Part shown: positions 15,892 through 25,745 of the stretch, one piece after another
Layout of the letters: every line of letters begins with the position of its first letter
Numbering within the stretch: the first letter of the stretch is position 1
DNA from: Actinacidiphila oryziradicis
GTDB taxonomy: Bacteria; Actinomycetota; Actinomycetes; Streptomycetales; Streptomycetaceae
Length of the DNA: 64,000 bases
Reading direction: 5' to 3'
NCBI RefSeq assembly: GCF_005047355.1
Contig: NZ_SUMC01000009.1
Span: forward strand, 62,001 to 126,000
Translations under genes and position numbers: made by a program
Notes under the pieces: generated by a model
Databases searched by the model: none
What the model was told of the DNA's origin: nothing
The model's input: the letters and a program-made list of their open reading frames with translations, nothing else

Positions 15892-16950
15892 CTACCAGCG
15901 CAGCAGGACCAGTTCGCAAGCGAAGCCGGGCCCCATCGCCAGCAGCAGACCCGGCGTGCCCGGCGGCGGGCGGCGATCAGCCAGGGTGTCGCGCAGTACA
16001 TGGAGCACCGATGACGAGGACAGGTTGCCTACGTCGGCCAGGTGCCGCCAGGTGACATCGAGCGCCTCCTCGGGCAGGTCGAGAGCCTCGGTGACGGCCT
16101 CCAGGACCTTGGGGCCGCCGGGGTGGCACACCCACGCGGTCACGTCCCCCGGTTTCAGCCCGTGGTCGCCGAGGAACCCCTCGACGTCGTCGGCGAGGTA
16201 ACGGCGCACCACATCGGGGACCTTCGGGTCGAGGACGACCTGAAAGCCGGAGTCCTTGATGTCCCAGCCCATGACGCGCCCGGTGTCCGGATACAGGTGG
16301 CTGCGGGTGTCCACGATCGTCGGGCCGGCGGTCTCCTCCGGGCGGTTCGCGCCGCAGGCGACAACCGCGGCGGCGCCGTCGCCGAACAGCCCGGTGGCAA
16401 CCAAGTTGGCCATGGAGGCGTCGTTGCGCTGGAAGGTGAGCGAGCACAGTTCCACCGACAGCAGCACCGCCACCTGGTCGGGCCGGCCCAGCAGGTAGTC
16501 GTGCATACGGGCCAGGCCGGCGGCGCCGCCGGCACAGCCCAGGCCGAACAGGGGCAGCCGTTTGACGTCCGGCCGCAGTCCGAGGCGGCCGGCCAGCCGT
16601 GCGTCGATCGAGGGGGTGGCGATGCCGGTGACGGAGGTGAATATCAGCAGATCCACGTCGGCGGCGGACAGACCGGCGGTGTGCAGCGCGCCGCGGACGG
16701 CCTTGGCGCCCAGTTCGGTGGCGGCGCCGATGAAGACGTCGTTGACGGCGCCGAATCCGTCCAGTTCCCCGTACCGTTCGAGCGGCAGCGTCATGTGGCG
16801 CGCGCGGACCTTCGCGCTGCGGTGCAGCCGGTCCAGGACCCGGCGGTCGGTGCCCTCGGGGAGGCAGGTGCGGGCCACCATGTCCGTGATCTCGGACTGG
16901 GCGTGACGGTACGGCGCGAGGGCACCGTGAACGGCTGCGATCCGGGTCAT
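15892..16950 (-). CDS. Type III polyketide synthase (chalcone/stilbene synthase family)
   Basis: The 352-residue homodimeric ketosynthase extends a CoA starter with malonyl-CoA without an ACP. The catalytic Cys is in LFGLGCAGGAAGLARM, the His in WVCHPGGPKVLEAV, and the Asn in VGNLSSSSVLHVL. The C-terminus has the GPGFACELVLL motif. The ATG at 16950 is chosen because MTRIAAVHG begins the fold. Its operon partners (ICMT, FAD enzyme) and the divergent UbiA prenyltransferase point to a methylated, oxidised and perhaps prenylated alkylpyrone or alkylresorcinol. The exact product is unknown. Confidence 0.92.
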   Translation of the reverse strand: MTRIAAVHGALAPYRHAQSEITDMVARTCLPEGTDRRVLDRLHRSAKVRARHMTLPLERYGELDGFGAVNDVFIGAATELGAKAVRGALHTAGLSAADVDLLIFTSVTGIATPSIDARLAGRLGLRPDVKRLPLFGLGCAGGAAGLARMHDYLLGRPDQVAVLLSVELCSLTFQRNDASMANLVATGLFGDGAAAVVACGANRPEETAGPTIVDTRSHLYPDTGRVMGWDIKDSGFQVVLDPKVPDVVRRYLADDVEGFLGDHGLKPGDVTAWVCHPGGPKVLEAVTEALDLPEEALDVTWRHLADVGNLSSSSVLHVLRDTLADRRPPPGTPGLLLAMGPGFACELVLLRW

Positions 16951-17091
16951 ACGGTTCCCGTCGTGGGGGGTGGCTTGCTCCGCACGTCTTCCCCGGACCG
17001 GGGCTTCGACACCCTTGATCCCCACCCGGCACCGTTCGTCCCGGGCGCAGTGCTCCAGCCGGGTGGGGCCGGGGCGCCTACGATCGGCCGG

Positions 17092-18253: not shown

Positions 18254-19351
18254 ATGTCCCCGAATCCGCCTGAGTTCATATCAGCCGACGTCCTCGCATA
18301 CCGACACCGCCGGGCACGACACCAGCGGCACGCCCGGTTGACCGTCGTCCTGGCAGCACTCTGCACCGCCCTACTACCCGCCGCTGCTCCTCACGCCTCG
18401 GCAGCGACGCACAAGGATCTGTTCGGCAATCGCCTCTATGTGGTCAACTCCGGCTCGGGCACCGTTTCGGTGATCGACACCAACACCAACACGGTCGTCG
18501 GCACCCCGATCCCCGTCGGCACCACCCCCGCCCAGGTGGCCACCGACACCCTCCGCGGCCGCGCCTACGTGACCAACTTCGACTCGAAAAGCGTTTCGGT
18601 GATCGACACCAACACCAACACGGTCGTCGGTTCCCCGGTCACCGTCGGCAACTTCCCCGTCGGGGTGGCCACCGACACCCTCCGCAGCCGCGCCTACGTG
18701 GCCAGCGGCGGCTCGAACAGCGTTTCGGTGATCAACACCAACACCAACGCGGTCGTCGGCTCCCCGGTCACCGTCGGCGGCAACTTCCCCTACGGGGTGG
18801 CCACCGACACCCTCCGCGGCCGCGCCTACGTGACCAACCGCGACTCGGGCACCGTTTCGGTGATCAACACCAACACCAACACGGTCGTCGGCTCCCCGAT
18901 CCCCGTCGGCAACCTTCCTCACGGGGTGGCCACCGACACCCTCCGCGGCCGCGCCTACGTGACCAACCGCGGCTCGGGCACCGTTTCGGTGATCAACACC
19001 AACACCAACACGGTCGTCGGCTCCCCGATCACCGTCGGCACCGAACCCGTCGGAGTGGCCACCGACACCCTCCGCGGCCGCGCCTACGTGACCAACGGCG
19101 GCTCGAACACCGTTTCGGTGATCGACACCAATACCAACAACGTCGTCGGCTCCCCGATCCCCGTCGGCAACTTCCCCCTTGGGGTGGCCACCGACACCCT
19201 CCGCGGCCGCGTCTACGTGACCAACCGCAACTCGAACACCGTTTCGGTGATCGACAGCAACACCAACACGGTCGTCGGCACCCCGATCCCCGTCGGCAAC
19301 AACCCCTGGGGGGTGGCACTGGGGAAGCCGCTCCAGAGCGCGAACCACTAA
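18254..19351 (+). CDS. Secreted YVTN-type seven-bladed beta-propeller protein
   Basis: The 365-residue product has an Arg/His-rich N-terminus, a signal peptide (residues about 28-52, ending SAAT), then seven consecutive repeats of about 43 residues. Each repeat follows [32 protein letters not shown]. Seven such units form one YVTN/NHL beta-propeller, a scaffold for extracellular binding. Repeat three has one extra Gly, and repeat seven lacks the closing ATDTLRGR block. The repeats are nearly identical at DNA level, implying recent tandem amplification or gene conversion. The ATG has GGAGG upstream. Confidence 0.87.
18436..19318 (+). repeat. Seven tandem 129-bp coding repeats
   Basis: The propeller-coding DNA consists of seven units of 129 bp (one of 132 bp). 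Long stretches such as ACCGACACCCTCCGCGGCCG and AACACCAACAC recur with few changes. This homogeneity makes the region prone to recombination and to assembly collapse. Confidence 0.85.
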
Positions 19352-19701: not shown

Positions 19702-20003
19702 AACGATCCTCGCGTTCTGGCACGTGACGTTCAAAGAGTGGTCCAGTGCTTGGCGGGCCTTGTCCTCGCGGCCGTCGGCGGCGTATGCCCGTGCGGCTAC
19801 GTCGGCCGCGTATGCCCGTGCGGCGATCGCGTGGTCGATGCCGACGCGGGGTTTGTCCTGCCAGGTCGCTGGCTGACTGGCGACCGCGCGGCGGCCCACG
19901 TGACCGCTGCTGGCCTCGGTTGCCTGTGGGATACCGCCCGTACTGGTGCGCGAGTGGTACGGCGGCGCCGAAGTGACCCCTTGTCGGTGCTCAGCGGGCT
20001 TAG

Positions 20004-20275
20004 AGGCCGCGCGAATAGGTGGGGCGGCGTCGCGGGCCGATGGCTCTCGCCTGGAAGTGTTGTCGTCGGTGTCGGTCGACGACTCTCCCCCAGACTCCGT
20101 CCGGGAGGTGCCCCCAACAAGCTCTCGGCTCCGCTCGAGCAGGGGGCACCCCCATCGCGTCGCCTCGCCCCCAGCCTTCGGCCGGGAGGTGCCCCCAGGA
20201 GGTGCCCCCACCTCCGCATTGCCAGACTCGGCCCTCGCCCCGCTCCTTAACCCGCCCCACCTATTCGCGCGGCCT
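20004..20275. mobile_element. MITE-like element with 24-bp perfect terminal inverted repeats
   Basis: Bases 20004-20027 (beginning AGGCCGCGCGAATAGG) are the exact reverse complement of 20252-20275. Both ends are flanked by the 5-bp direct repeat CTTAG (19999-20003 and 20276-20280), a typical target-site duplication. The 272-bp interior has no transposase and no meaningful reading frame. It carries two or three copies of a GGGAGGTGCCCCC-type repeat that is common in Streptomyces intergenic DNA. This is the structure of a non-autonomous transposable element mobilised in trans. Confidence 0.75.
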
Positions 20276-20331
20276 CTTAGCCTGGGACAAGGCCCAGATG
20301 CTGGGCTGTACGCCCAGCGAAGGGGATGATC

Positions 20332-20974: not shown

Positions 20975-21631
20975 TCAGTCCAGCGTCGCGTAAACGATGA
21001 GGTTGTTCACCGGGTGGCCCTGGGCGTCGAAGTCGCCGTCGCAGGTGATCAGCCGCAGGGCGTGGTCCTTGGTCGGGCCGTAGACCTTCTCGGTGGGGAA
21101 GGACTTCTTGCTGACGCTCTCGGTGCTCGTGACGGTGAAGTGCGCCGACTCTCCCCGGGCGTTGGTGACGGTGATGTCCGCGCCCCTGGCGATCTTCTTG
21201 AGGTCGTGGAAGACGGCCTTGCCGAAGCGGGTGTCGTTGTGGCCGATGATGACGGCGGCACCGGCTGCACCGGGCACGGAACCGCCGGTGTACCAGCCGG
21301 CGGTCATGCCCTTGTCGGCCGGCGGGACTTCGACGGTTCCGTCCGTGTTGAGACCGAGCTTCATCAGGGAACTGGTGATCCCGATCGAGGGGATGGCGAC
21401 CTTGGTGGGAGCCGCGGGCTGCTTGACCCCCGGAGCCTCGGGCGAGGTGGTGTCGGGCGAGGTGGTGCGGGCGGCGGGAGCGGCGGCAGGAGTCGTCGAG
21501 GCCGTGTCGGGGGCGGACGAGCAGCCGGCGAGCACGGTGAGGACCGCGGGTGCCACGAGAGCGAGGCGGCCGAGGCGGACGAGGGTCGGCAGGGTGCCGA
21601 AACGCCGTACCGGATGGTGCGCAGGGGACAC
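20975..21631 (-). CDS. Class F-type sortase, putative lipoprotein
   Basis: Sortases cleave a C-terminal sorting signal and link the protein to the cell envelope. The 218-residue protein has a lipobox-like N-terminus (VLTVLAGCSS), an Ala/Thr/Pro spacer, then the sortase barrel. The barrel has RVAIPSIGI-like first strand KVAIPSIGIT, the catalytic His in AAVIIGHNDTRFG and the catalytic Cys in LRLITCDGDFD. The usual catalytic Arg near the last strand is not evident (HPVNNLIVYATLD). The gene follows a secreted protein with a sorting-signal-like C-terminus, its probable substrate. The gap 20564-20974 downstream shows nothing notable. Confidence 0.85.
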   Translation of the reverse strand: MSPAHHPVRRFGTLPTLVRLGRLALVAPAVLTVLAGCSSAPDTASTTPAAAPAARTTSPDTTSPEAPGVKQPAAPTKVAIPSIGITSSLMKLGLNTDGTVEVPPADKGMTAGWYTGGSVPGAAGAAVIIGHNDTRFGKAVFHDLKKIARGADITVTNARGESAHFTVTSTESVSKKSFPTEKVYGPTKDHALRLITCDGDFDAQGHPVNNLIVYATLD

Positions 21632-22264: not shown

Positions 22265-24424
22265 TCAGGGCCGGGCGGTGGTCTCCTCGGTCTCCTCGGT
22301 CTCTTCCGGTCCGGTGGAGGCTGCCGGGTCCGTGCCGTCCTCCGCTTCACCGGTCCGGCCCTGCGTCGCGCCACCGCCGGGGCTTTCCGCAGCACCACCG
22401 CTCGCCTCCCGCTCCGTACCACCGCCCGGCGCGGCCGGCAGCCGCAAGGTGAAGACAGAGCCCTGCCCCTCGGTGCTCACCACGGCCGCCGTGCCACCGT
22501 GGGCTTCGGCGAGTCTGAGGACGATCGCCAGGCCGAGGCCGGTGCCGCCGGTGCTCCGGCTGCGGGACTTCTCCGCCCGCCAGAAGCGGTCGAATACGCG
22601 GGGGACGTCGTCCGCCGGGATACCGCTGCCGGTGTCGGACACCTCCACGGCGACCTCGTTCCCGGAATCGGTGACGTACGAGCGCAGCGTCACCCTGCCA
22701 CCGGGCGGTGTGTGGCGTACCGCGTTGGAGACCAGGTTGCTGACGGCCTGGCGCAGCCGGACCGGGTCGGCGTCGAGCAGCGGTGGCCGGAGGGTGCCGG
22801 GCGTCGCCGGGGAGACCACCAGTGTGACGCCCGCGGTCTCGGCCAGGCCCTGGTGTGCCGCGGCGACCTGGCCGAGGAGGTCGTCGACGCGTACCGGCTG
22901 CAGGTGCAGACGCAGCGCGCCCGCGTCGGCCGCCGCCAGATCCTGCAGATCGTTGATGACGTGTTGAAGCTGCACCGCCTCCTCCAGCAGCGAGGAGACG
23001 AACGCAGGATCCAACTCGGCCAGTCCGTCCTGTGCCGCCTCCAGCCAGCCACGGATATTGCTCAGCGGGGTGCGCAGTTCGTGGGCGACGTCGCTGACCA
23101 TCACTTTGCGCTGTTCCTCGAGCCGGGCGCGGTGTGCGGCCATGTCGTTGAAGGTCGCGGCCAGCCGTCCGATCTCGTTGTCGGAGCCGACCGGCACGGG
23201 CGCCGAGTCCAGGCCGTCCCGCATTCGCTGAGCGGCGCTGGTGAGCGCGTGCAAAGGGCGTACGAGCCGGGTTCCGGCGAGCACCGAGGCGCCGACGGTG
23301 AGGGCGAGGACGAGGGCGGTGACCCCGGCGATGCGTGCCGTGTTCGCCGGTGAGAGATCGAAACCGGGCACGCTGACGGCACCGGGGTCGTCGATGAACA
23401 GCAGTGCGGGCGCGGCGACATAGGCCGTGAGTTGTTCGCGGCGGGCGCTGCCGACGCAGGACGCGATGGCCCGGTCGTACGCGCTGTCGCGGGCCTCGGG
23501 CAGGCCGTCGGTCAGCCCGCGGGCAGCGGCGGCACCCTCCTTGGCCGCTTTTGCCGCAAGGTCCGCCGTCTCCTTGGCGATGAGGGCCTTGGACGCGGGG
23601 CTGGCGGCCGGTTGGCCGATCTTCGTCGCGCCCTGCCCGTACGACCGGTCCCAGGACAGGTCCAGGTTCAGTCTCACGCCCGTGCGGCCCTGGCGTTCCA
23701 GACAGGCGTCAGCAAGTTGATTGAGGGAGCGGAGGGCCTTCTTCTCGGTCGCGGTGGGAGCGGACGACTCGCTTGTCAGGCACTTCTGTTCCAGAAAACT
23801 GTCGGTGTTCTTGCTCACGAGCTGGATACGGGGCCGCCCGCTCGGGCTCTCGCCGACGTCCGCCGCTACGCCCACCTTGTTGAGGCACTGCACACTCCTG
23901 GCCGTGGCCTGCCGCAGGGCCGCACGTTCCTTCGCGGGCAGCAGGAACGGTCCGACGGCTCGTGGATCGATGCGGTCCGCGCCGGCGGAGGCGGCATCGG
24001 GCACCAGCACGGTGTCGACGGACAGTGGGTCGACGACCGCCGAGGCCTGTGGTGGCAGCGGGGCGGCGGACGAGGTGCCGTCGGAGCCGGAGGAGGAGCC
24101 TGCGGAGGAGTCGAAGAGGGGACGCCGGTCCTGGGTGGTCAGCGCGATCCGGCGTTGGGACTGCCGGGCCAGTTCCCGCACGGTGTCGTCAACGCCCTCC
24201 CATCCGGGGTGGGTGGCCGCGTAGCCCAGCAGGGTGTTGTAGATCTTGGCATCGGCGCTGAGGTTCTGTCCCTGCTCCTGGCGGATCGCGCCGGAGGTCG
24301 TCTGTACGGCGAGCCAGGCGGTGGCGGCGACCGAGCACGAGGCCACCAGCGCCGACACGGTCAGCAGCCGGCCGAGCAGGCTCTTACGGAGCGGCAGCCG
24401 CGCCCGCTCGTCACGACGACGCAT
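22265..24424 (-). CDS. Sensor histidine kinase (membrane, HAMP-HisKA-HATPase)
   Basis: This 719-residue kinase has an N-terminal helix (about 17-40) and an extracellular sensor of roughly 300 residues with several Cys. A second helix (about 355-378) leads to a HAMP linker, a HisKA domain with VAHELRTPLSNIRGWLEA, and a HATPase with the N-box (NLVSNAVRHTPPGG), DTGSGIP and GTGLGLAIV. It overlaps the response-regulator gene upstream by 14 bp. The sortase substrate and sortase lie downstream on the same strand, so this pair may respond to envelope conditions. Confidence 0.92.
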   Translation of the reverse strand: MRRRDERARLPLRKSLLGRLLTVSALVASCSVAATAWLAVQTTSGAIRQEQGQNLSADAKIYNTLLGYAATHPGWEGVDDTVRELARQSQRRIALTTQDRRPLFDSSAGSSSGSDGTSSAAPLPPQASAVVDPLSVDTVLVPDAASAGADRIDPRAVGPFLLPAKERAALRQATARSVQCLNKVGVAADVGESPSGRPRIQLVSKNTDSFLEQKCLTSESSAPTATEKKALRSLNQLADACLERQGRTGVRLNLDLSWDRSYGQGATKIGQPAASPASKALIAKETADLAAKAAKEGAAAARGLTDGLPEARDSAYDRAIASCVGSARREQLTAYVAAPALLFIDDPGAVSVPGFDLSPANTARIAGVTALVLALTVGASVLAGTRLVRPLHALTSAAQRMRDGLDSAPVPVGSDNEIGRLAATFNDMAAHRARLEEQRKVMVSDVAHELRTPLSNIRGWLEAAQDGLAELDPAFVSSLLEEAVQLQHVINDLQDLAAADAGALRLHLQPVRVDDLLGQVAAAHQGLAETAGVTLVVSPATPGTLRPPLLDADPVRLRQAVSNLVSNAVRHTPPGGRVTLRSYVTDSGNEVAVEVSDTGSGIPADDVPRVFDRFWRAEKSRSRSTGGTGLGLAIVLRLAEAHGGTAAVVSTEGQGSVFTLRLPAAPGGGTEREASGGAAESPGGGATQGRTGEAEDGTDPAASTGPEETEETEETTARP

Positions 24425-25154
24425 GGCGTCCGTTCCTCGCGGGGTCCGTCAGCTTGTAGCCGACGCCGAAAACGGTGAGCAGCCGGGCCGGCCGCCGTGG
24501 GGCGCGCTCGATCTTCTTGCGCAGATGCATGATGTGCACATCGACGGTGCGGTCGCTGATGTACTTGTCGAAGCCGTGCAGCTCCTCCAGGAGCCGCTGT
24601 CTGGTGAAGACCCGGTCGGGCTCCGTCGCCATCGCGGCGAGGATACGGAACTCGCCGGGCGTGCACACGACCGGCGTCCCCCCGACCGACACCTCGTGCC
24701 GGGCCGGATCGACCCTGAGCGTGCCCACCGAAAGCGCCCGGTCCTCGACGGCGGCAGGTGTGGGGCCAGGGGCGGGGCCGGCGGAACGCTGGTTGCGGCG
24801 CAGCAATGTGCGTACCCGGGCCATCAGCTCACGAGGGCTGAACGGCTTGGTCATGTAGTCGTCAGCGCCGAGATCCAGGCCGAGCAGCAGATCGTCCTCG
24901 GTACTACGGGCCGTCAGCATCAGCACCGGCACCTCCCGGTGCTCGGCGCGCAGAATACGCACCACGTCGAGGCCGTCGGCCCGGGGCATCATCACATCGA
25001 GAATGAGCAGGTCGGGTTCCCTGTGCCGAACTTCCTCAAGAGCGGCACGGCCGTCCCCGACGACCGTGACCGTGTGCCCCTCGTGCTCCAAATAGCGGCG
25101 CACCAGTTCGGCCTGCTTCGCATCGTCTTCGGCGACCATTATGTTTGCGGACAC
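24411..25154 (-). CDS. OmpR/PhoB-family response regulator
   Basis: The 247-residue regulator has a receiver domain (residues about 5-118, phosphoacceptor Asp in LLILDVMMPRADG, Lys in YMTKPFSPREL). A winged-helix DNA-binding domain follows (about 150-240, with TPGEFRILAAM, YISDRTVDVHIMHLRKKIE and VFGVGYKL). The GTG at 25154 begins VSANIMVAEDD. An in-frame extension to 25340 would run into the tRNA fragment and is rejected. It is paired with the overlapping histidine kinase. Confidence 0.92.
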   Translation of the reverse strand: MSANIMVAEDDAKQAELVRRYLEHEGHTVTVVGDGRAALEEVRHREPDLLILDVMMPRADGLDVVRILRAEHREVPVLMLTARSTEDDLLLGLDLGADDYMTKPFSPRELMARVRTLLRRNQRSAGPAPGPTPAAVEDRALSVGTLRVDPARHEVSVGGTPVVCTPGEFRILAAMATEPDRVFTRQRLLEELHGFDKYISDRTVDVHIMHLRKKIERAPRRPARLLTVFGVGYKLTDPARNGRHASS

Positions 25155-25292
25155 GCCGCTGATCGTAGCCAGGATGGGACGCGGGCCGACGGTAACTGGG
25201 TTTTCACAAACGGGAGGTCGGTGCTGGGGGCGGTCCTGCTCGGGGACGACAGCCGGGCGGGCGGGGCTGATCCATCGGCACTCGGCTTTCTT

Positions 25293-25336
25293 TGGAGCGG
25301 ATGACGGGAATCGAACCCGCGCTCTGACCTTGGGAA
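25293..25336 (-). other. 3' half of a tRNA-Gly(CCC), putative att scar
   Basis: On the minus strand this 44-base segment begins TTCCCAA (an anticodon loop with CCC) and continues through a complete T-arm (GCGGG-TTCGATT-CCCGT). It ends in an acceptor strand CATCCGC-T and encoded CCA. No 5' half (D-arm or matching acceptor strand) precedes it, so it is not a functional tRNA. Integrating elements that use tRNA genes duplicate exactly this 3' portion, so this is likely an attL/attR remnant. Confidence 0.65.
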
Positions 25337-25745
25337 TCACGGGCGCCCCGGGCGTATATGGGCAGGTCAGCCGGTTTCTGCGCCTGATCGGCTGGTGGAG
25401 GGCCTGTTACCGCTGTGGACCTTGTCGCCTGTGGGACACCGCCCTGACGGGTGCGGAAGTGGTGCGGCTGGACGCGAGCGGCGCCGAGGTTTGTGGGATC
25501 CCGACAACGCCGGCGGGTTGGCCCGGACCGACAGGCCGCTCGAGGTCTGCCTTCGACGCTGCCTCGACCGCTGTGCCGGCCGCGGTCGTCACCTGCTCTG
25601 CGGCGCCGTTACCGGGACAGGCTGCGGGCGGACGCACCGGATGTGTTCTTCTGAACGGCGGTACGGCCCGGCTGTTCTGGATAGAACGGTCGCGGTGGTG
25701 GGGGTATGTGGTTGAACATGGGGTGTGCGATTCGACTCCGTTCCC

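Follow-up and report, generated by a model that had tools for sequence, protein, structure and literature searches.

The window, a stretch of 64,000 nucleotides corresponding to C379:62001-126000 in the genome of Actinacidiphila oryziradicis (11.53 Mb, 389 contigs), contains a MITE-like element of 274 bp at positions 20003-20276. The neighbouring genes encode, according to Pfam, a chalcone/stilbene-synthase-type polyketide synthase (15892-17025, minus strand), an NHL-repeat protein (18254-19351, plus strand) and a sortase (20975-21631, minus strand), and a histidine kinase/response regulator pair was recognized by eye at 22265-25340 (minus strand). Five open frames of 127-425 aa overlap the element; all of them extend past its limits, and none has a Pfam match, to a transposase or to any other family. 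The element is made up as follows.

20000..20002, no strand: left target duplication, TTA (flanks compared with other copies)
20003..20027, plus: left TIR, 25 bp (inverted match, shuffle control)
20028..20083, minus: left part of the common interior, holding GTTGTCGTCGGT...GTCGACGAC (38-copy alignment and family alignments)
20084..20156, plus: module B, a GGGAGGTGCCCCC-type double hairpin located where the core has its apical hairpin (38-copy alignment)
20157..20166, minus: short common-core piece GCGTCGCCTC, flanked by both inserted modules (38-copy alignment)
20167..20210, plus: module C and a partial further copy, GGGAGGTGCCCCCAGGAGGTGCCCCCA (38-copy alignment)
20211..20251, minus: right part of the common interior (38-copy alignment)
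20252..20276, minus: right TIR, 25 bp (inverted match, shuffle control)
20277..20279, no strand: right target duplication, TTA (flanks compared with other copies)

The inverted repeats (GAGGCCGCGCGAATAGGTGGGGCGG at the left end and its reverse complement at the right) are perfect, as an earlier note on this DNA had stated, but measure 25 bp and not 24. Their first 22 bases, with up to 3 mismatches allowed, occur at two places in the window, both of them ends of the element, and nowhere in 100 dinucleotide shuffles. The same note had read a 5-bp duplication, CTTAG. This reading has to be corrected to the 3-bp TTA, because the outer C and G coincide by chance with the terminal TIR bases; at other copies of the window MITE the flanks are TTA, TAA or CTA. 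On the family's RNA-like strand, the left part of the interior (20028..20083) reads along the minus strand of the window.

The 38-copy alignment, built from A. oryziradicis, resolves the family into a 159-bp core and added units of about 25-75 bp that occur at few positions, most of them of the form CCCCCAG-hairpin-GGGAGGTGCCCCCA; module B, for example, is missing from the 159-bp copies. The GGGAGGTGCCCCC repeats that the earlier note saw in the element are indeed there, exact at 20103 and 20184 and with one mismatch at 20197; when the window was shuffled 100 times, 3 of the shuffles gave at least three such matches. The further proposal that the element spreads these repeats is weakly supported: exact GGGAGGTGCCCCCA occurs 222 times in the A. 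oryziradicis genome (control, 0), and among the first 30 of these places 8 lie near the window-MITE TIR, 7 are close to an end of CTAG type (matched by a loose pattern) and 6 to the core, with overlap among these sets. GGGAGGTGCCCCCA units form a dispersed repeat, often arranged in arrays and found in several other repeat contexts. The modules, which in the window copy occupy 20084-20156 and 20167-20210, seem to belong to a repeat family of their own that inserts into the MITE.

Copies, movement and shortened forms

A search of the A. oryziradicis genome with up to 3 mismatches returned 145 TIR matches, against 0 for the reversed-pattern control, and from the fetched loci 39 complete copies of 159-344 bp were recovered, each with flanks of its own. 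Identical 3-bp flanks border 30 of the 39, the remaining 9 being without them; the flank is TTA or TAA in 29 and CTA in one. Since several contigs stop within about 130 bp of a TIR, the assembly may miss copies. Identical 3-bp flanks were also found in A. soli (18/25) and S. corynorhini (6/7), and at none of three copies in genome G029. Exact ends are rare: a scan of one genome per species over 84,980 species, from which the record of the window genome is possibly absent, gave 47 stretches, from Actinacidiphila soli LAM7114, Streptomyces corynorhini AC230 and one Marmoricola MAG contig. Within the window's GTDB genus, end matches (up to 3 mismatches) are present in 4 of 35 genomes, A. oryziradicis counted. 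The Marmoricola match is a single MITE end at the end of a nocardioid MAG contig (JAOPYE010000038.1), and reflects either horizontal transfer or a binning/assembly error.

An empty orthologous site is provided by the copy at A. oryziradicis C18:13490, which sits (by eye) between an SDR-like and an oxidoreductase-like gene. The corresponding gene pair is uninterrupted in G029, where it aligns with 75% identity over 315 bp without the insertion; the gene stop at this site is TGA in G029 and TAA in A. oryziradicis. The window's own site was one of six queried, and among the matches listed no relative matched across its junction; the empty site is that at the orthologue of C18:13490 and not one at the window locus itself.

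High copy number, 3-bp duplications, the empty orthologous site and the existence of IS5-family elements with similar ends (see below) bear out the view of a mobile non-autonomous element. The copies are short and non-coding (159-344 bp in the 38 aligned), have TIRs and a target duplication, and are numerous, with an empty site, as is characteristic of MITEs; the duplication is of the 3-bp TNA type, IS5-family target duplications being TNA or YTAR according to subgroup. That movement was recent, as had been claimed, is suggested by the near identity of copies together with their duplications. The element is a confirmed IS5-type MITE, apparently active in the recent past, and as a copy the 274-bp window sequence is ordinary. 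A chance inverted repeat or a conserved host regulatory element in place of a transposon is scarcely conceivable, being contradicted by the copy number, the duplications, the empty site and the copies with distinct flanks; no point in its favour was found. Stop-codon targeting was considered as a mechanism and rejected: 11 of 72 complete copies from several genomes abut a frame stop, against 34 of 539 control TAA sites (counting high-GC3 open frames that span 100 codons or more), which is a weak difference (Fisher p = 0.013).

A 29-bp form, GAGGCCGCGCGAATAGGTGGGGCGGCCTC, was found at 19 places, 13 in A. oryziradicis, 5 in S. corynorhini and 1 in A. soli, by a search that tolerated up to 3 changes, held the end GGCCTC fixed and was tied to one junction. 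Its 3-bp flanks are identical at 5/13, 5/5 (one of them GTA/GTA) and 1/1 of these places, respectively. It is possible, though I lean somewhat against it, that this form is itself mobile, a minimal element of one binding site and two 6-bp ends, and not a recurrent deletion product. Its occurrence at 19 places across three species and its identical flanks argue for mobility, as does the fact that the other shortened forms met in passing were each single. On the other hand, the two TIRs share a 4-bp GCGG microhomology, across which a deletion would give precisely this form and would keep the TSDs too, and no orthologous pair of a full and a 29-mer site was found. Recurrent GCGG deletion and 29-mer transposition both fit. 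Near-palindromes comprising barely more than two TIRs were also observed, of 72 bp (A. soli C16:67139-67210) and 58 bp (A. soli C232:27416-27473) and of 65 bp (G029 C1:1077533). A composite transposon around the carboxypeptidase-like gene at C339:37790-39590 was rejected, its sides being a 29-mer and a truncated left end.

A candidate helper transposase and the ends of the family

Ends resembling those of the MITE were found on IS5-type elements of two genomes. In G020, an IS5-type transposase frame begins 101 bp downstream of TTA followed by GAGGCCGCGCGGATAGGCGCGGTGG; the frame is truncated, and its N-terminus is left. In A. soli, an element of 2017 bp with the ends GAGCTCGCGCAGATAGGCGCGGTGG and GAGGCCGCGCAGATAGGCGCGGTGG is flanked at either side by TAA and carries a frameshifted transposase and a metallo-beta-lactamase-superfamily gene. 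Compared with the MITE TIR, the IS ends show 4/25 mismatches in G020 and 5/25 and 7/25 in A. soli, and one A. soli MITE (L277) has ends that carry the IS-like GCGCAGATAGG. The A. soli element (L247, an IS5-family element at G010:C214, 1399-3415, whose passenger gene adjoins the frameshifted transposase) has its insertion point precisely at the TAA stop codon of a gene of UvrD/PcrA type. A Streptomyces plasmid carries a complete relative, 984 bp long, with TAA at both sides; of eight plasmid transposase loci only one (L244) showed a convincing TIR pair with a TSD. The transposases of S. atratus and NBC_01527 match NF033580 (transpos_IS5_3), PF13340, PF01609 and PF13586, and the A. soli fragment scores 107.4 bits against NF033580, for which the cut-off is 110.

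An intact helper IS was not found in the 389-contig assembly of A. oryziradicis, where the C47 transposase is N-terminally truncated and those of C29, C142 and C323 are fragments. The A. oryziradicis transposases with PF13359 (8 places) or PF01609 (48 places, 30 loci fetched) were rejected as helpers, 0 of 38 loci being bounded by a TIR pair; a single TIR copy lies near the transposase of one of these loci (L123). The search for a transposase with matching ends, which the earlier note had recommended, has yielded similar ends on truncated or frameshifted IS5 elements in G020 and A. soli and none that is intact in A. oryziradicis. S. corynorhini has copies, yet its transposase homologues are distant (26% and 33% identity); the right ends of its copies differ from the left ends at 2-3 positions. 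Because the ends are similar, the duplication (TAA) is alike and the transposases are akin, I infer from sequence comparison that the MITE is probably moved in trans by an IS5-family transposase of the NCBIfam transpos_IS5_3 group.

The interior has a far wider distribution. When 113 bp of a 159-bp copy, spanning the interior and 2 bp of either end, served as blastn query against 297 Streptomycetaceae genomes and two candidates were scored per genome, 170 genomes, belonging to 6 of 17 genera, gave a match at E ≤0.001. At most of the fetched loci the interior is enclosed by inverted repeats of other sequence. Sorted by flank, with TSD boundaries chosen with a bonus for a TSD and no shuffle control, 59 distinct places comprise 19 with exact CTAG, 6 with exact TNA, 13 near-matches, 17 with no TSD call and 4 that are cut or lack the core. 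The exact-flank places have 22 different 16-base end starts, the ends seen including GACCGACCGGCAATTGG with TAA and GGTCTGTCGTTTGGATC, GGCGTGTCTTGTGGATC and GGTCCGTCTTCAAACCC with CTAG. CTAG being self-complementary, sequence alone cannot separate a CTAG flank from four extra TIR bases. Lengths are mostly 157-188 bp, falling chiefly at 157-162, 166-170 and 181-188 bp.

Both types of end coexist in A. oryziradicis: its CTAG family (CTAG followed by GGCCTGTCCGGCCGATCTCCG) has the same interior, even module B, and two elements (L028 and L036) seem, by eye, to have one end from each family. The same genome contains two IS with CTAG flanks and GGCCTGTC ends, L127 and L136. L136 (C359, 930-3012) is a CTAG-flanked IS5_3 element of 2083 bp in which a 254-aa reverse frame, perhaps a passenger gene, adjoins the transposase. 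Two further A. oryziradicis elements of about 1.8 kb, L119 and L120 (C71 and C80), have GAGCGTGGTGGTGAA ends and TGA at both sides, and the L119 transposase matches NF033580. On an interior tree of 42 rows the class of end and flank changes 4 times by parsimony, and supported branches force at least 2 changes; L335, the same place as L289, stands on this tree alongside it and was kept out of the 59 places and of the 28 further rows described below, and two doubtful TSD calls (L338, L353) were dropped from the labels, other near-match flank labels being kept. The element is shown to belong to a large Streptomycetaceae set of MITEs that have one interior and differing ends, with TNA duplications or CTAG. 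In the open-access literature no description of such a superfamily with a hairpin core and exchangeable ends was found, which is weak evidence, most subscription journals being outside the coverage. In PMC10969869, 'Streptomyces' occurs 0 times.

The hairpin core

The consensus fold of 25 sequences of the 98-nt core, computed with RNA parameters, has 34 pairs and -53.9 kcal/mol on the purine-rich strand, and 20 pairs and -17.1 kcal/mol on the other strand. This alignment holds 25 of 30 loci, L279, L282, L286, L293 and L302 having been left out for a poor match, a contig-end cut or an odd insertion. In the 34 pairs, a rod-like hairpin structure derived from the same alignment on which the pairs were counted, 94.3% of cells are paired, compared with 77.6% in shuffles and 25-50% with slid partners. 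Cells changed at both sides number 131 vs 46.9 in shuffles, 21 of the 34 pairs being changed at both sides, and the covariation score is 0.439 vs 0.150; in none of 500 shuffles were the observed paired, double-change or score values reached. On the purine-rich strand G-U accounts for 118 cells and A-C for 4. When the pairs are picked from the opposite strand the count is 37 vs 5, a balance equalled in 0 of 2000 shuffles, and 28 further core sequences, held-out rows that the covariance model itself found and aligned, give 138 vs 2. In principle, a mutation process biased by strand might also produce more G-U than A-C.

All 25 core sequences have three tandem G-A/A-G motifs (GAGGAGGGAG against GACCGACGA) without variation; of the six G-A columns, five are likewise invariant across the 28 further rows, and the sixth is kept in 24 of them. 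The reading as RNA is suggested because the helices change while the G-A loops hardly do, as in structured RNA. Kink-turn RNAs have, on one strand, a 3-nt bulge followed in the 3' direction by tandem sheared G-A; the core has tandem G-A and a CAA bulge, but departs from this arrangement in that the bulge lies 3' of the G-A pair. Rfam gave 0 matches at the gathering score for the window and five core loci, and the sub-threshold matches of one core were mostly to long-hairpin miRNA models.

With the covariance model, 80 of 121 genomes gave matches, spread over 11 of 17 genera (E ≤0.001, up to 34 candidates scored per genome). The best match is below 1e-12 in 46 genomes of 5 genera and above it in 34 of the 80, which include all matches in 6 of the 11 genera; the E-values of this model are approximate, and hairpin repeats of other kinds may account for the weaker matches. 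The core model does not match the window copy, which is interrupted by modules, one chance-level match lying elsewhere in the window, and the RNA reading therefore concerns the family and not the window copy. No bias in gene orientation was seen: among the 28 elements (of 75 located) whose two neighbouring genes run in the same direction, 13 are in sense and 15 in antisense orientation. By subset, sense vs antisense is 2 vs 11 in the loci up to L180 and L228-L236 (mostly A. oryziradicis) and 8 vs 3 in L275-L304.

Competing explanations and known systems

I consider it likely that the family is a trans-moved IS5-type MITE whose common hairpin interior has been kept by selection on RNA and whose ends have been exchanged. 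An IS5-family transposase (transpos_IS5_3 group) would mobilize the MITE in trans; RNA made from one strand would be selected, whereby the interior would be retained; and the availability of a different transposase would lead to replacement of the ends. The window copy is a decorated member, its core being interrupted by GGGAGGTGCCCCC modules. As far as alignments and predicted folds can tell, the core appears to be under selection as an RNA hairpin inside an end-exchanging MITE. A more specific proposal, to be held tentatively, is that the interior codes a functional small RNA, a mobile riboregulator or a ribozyme with a triple tandem G-A core, on a MITE chassis of near-constant length that swaps TNA-type and CTAG-type IS5 ends to change transposase, the RNA, and not the ends, being the lineage that persists across Streptomycetaceae.

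Two other explanations have to be set against selection on RNA. The family might be an ordinary IS5-derived MITE family, with an interior that is non-functional and common by ancestry only, and ends that diverged gradually with their transposases. The end classes do cluster on the interior tree (4 changes vs 11.8 in shuffles, some labels being near-match flanks), and both end groups fall under one transposase model, NF033580. This account is nevertheless unlikely: loop columns are fixed though helix pairs change at both sides in 131 cells, the G-A columns would not have escaped neutral decay (25/25, and 24-28 of 28 further rows), and the supported branches force at least 2 class switches. The interior might also be selected as folded single-stranded DNA or as a cruciform, for instance a replication or recombination hairpin with a GCGGAGC cap. 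The apical GCGGAGC is invariant in 25/25 core sequences and fits d(GCGNAGC), a stable DNA mini-hairpin, and the unbiased gene orientation points the same way; but the excess of G-U over A-C in all three counts, and the difference in consensus energy between the strands, computed with RNA parameters, speak against a DNA fold and make it improbable. Selection on RNA, combined with movement in trans and exchange of ends, remains the explanation that I prefer.

A usual MITE keeps its ends while its interior decays; in this family the interior is kept and the ends change, with strong covariation on one strand. If this is confirmed, the family would represent a widespread, transposon-carried candidate structured RNA of streptomycetes, and transposase switching by a non-autonomous element would become testable. 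The 29-bp form bears on the minimum size of a transposable unit. The window MITE is the doorway to this superfamily with its conserved hairpin core and exchangeable ends.

Several known systems share some of these features. Tn3-derived miniature elements (TIMEs) are, like the present family, miniature and non-autonomous and are mobilized in trans, according to the available parts of PMC4133298 and PMC13367494; they have Tn3-type ends and a Tn3-type mechanism, and those parts make no mention of a common RNA-like core. The IS5-family transposons of the NF033580 group have the same TAA duplication and ends identical to the MITE at 21/25 (G020) and 20/25 and 18/25 (A. soli) positions, but they encode a transposase (the A. 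soli element also a metallo-beta-lactamase-superfamily protein), and no likeness to the MITE interior was noticed in them. REP and BIME sequences are palindromic repeats, and the GGGAGGTGCCCCC modules are likewise short, palindromic, dispersed and partly arrayed; unlike these, the modules are separate units that occur inside and outside the window MITE. A further parallel is with the IS5-family MITEs of bacteria, which are short and non-coding, have long TIRs resembling those of IS5-family IS and a TWA duplication, and reach high copy number; the present family differs in having a conserved interior that is found within ends belonging to different IS groups and shows the covariation of an RNA-type hairpin.
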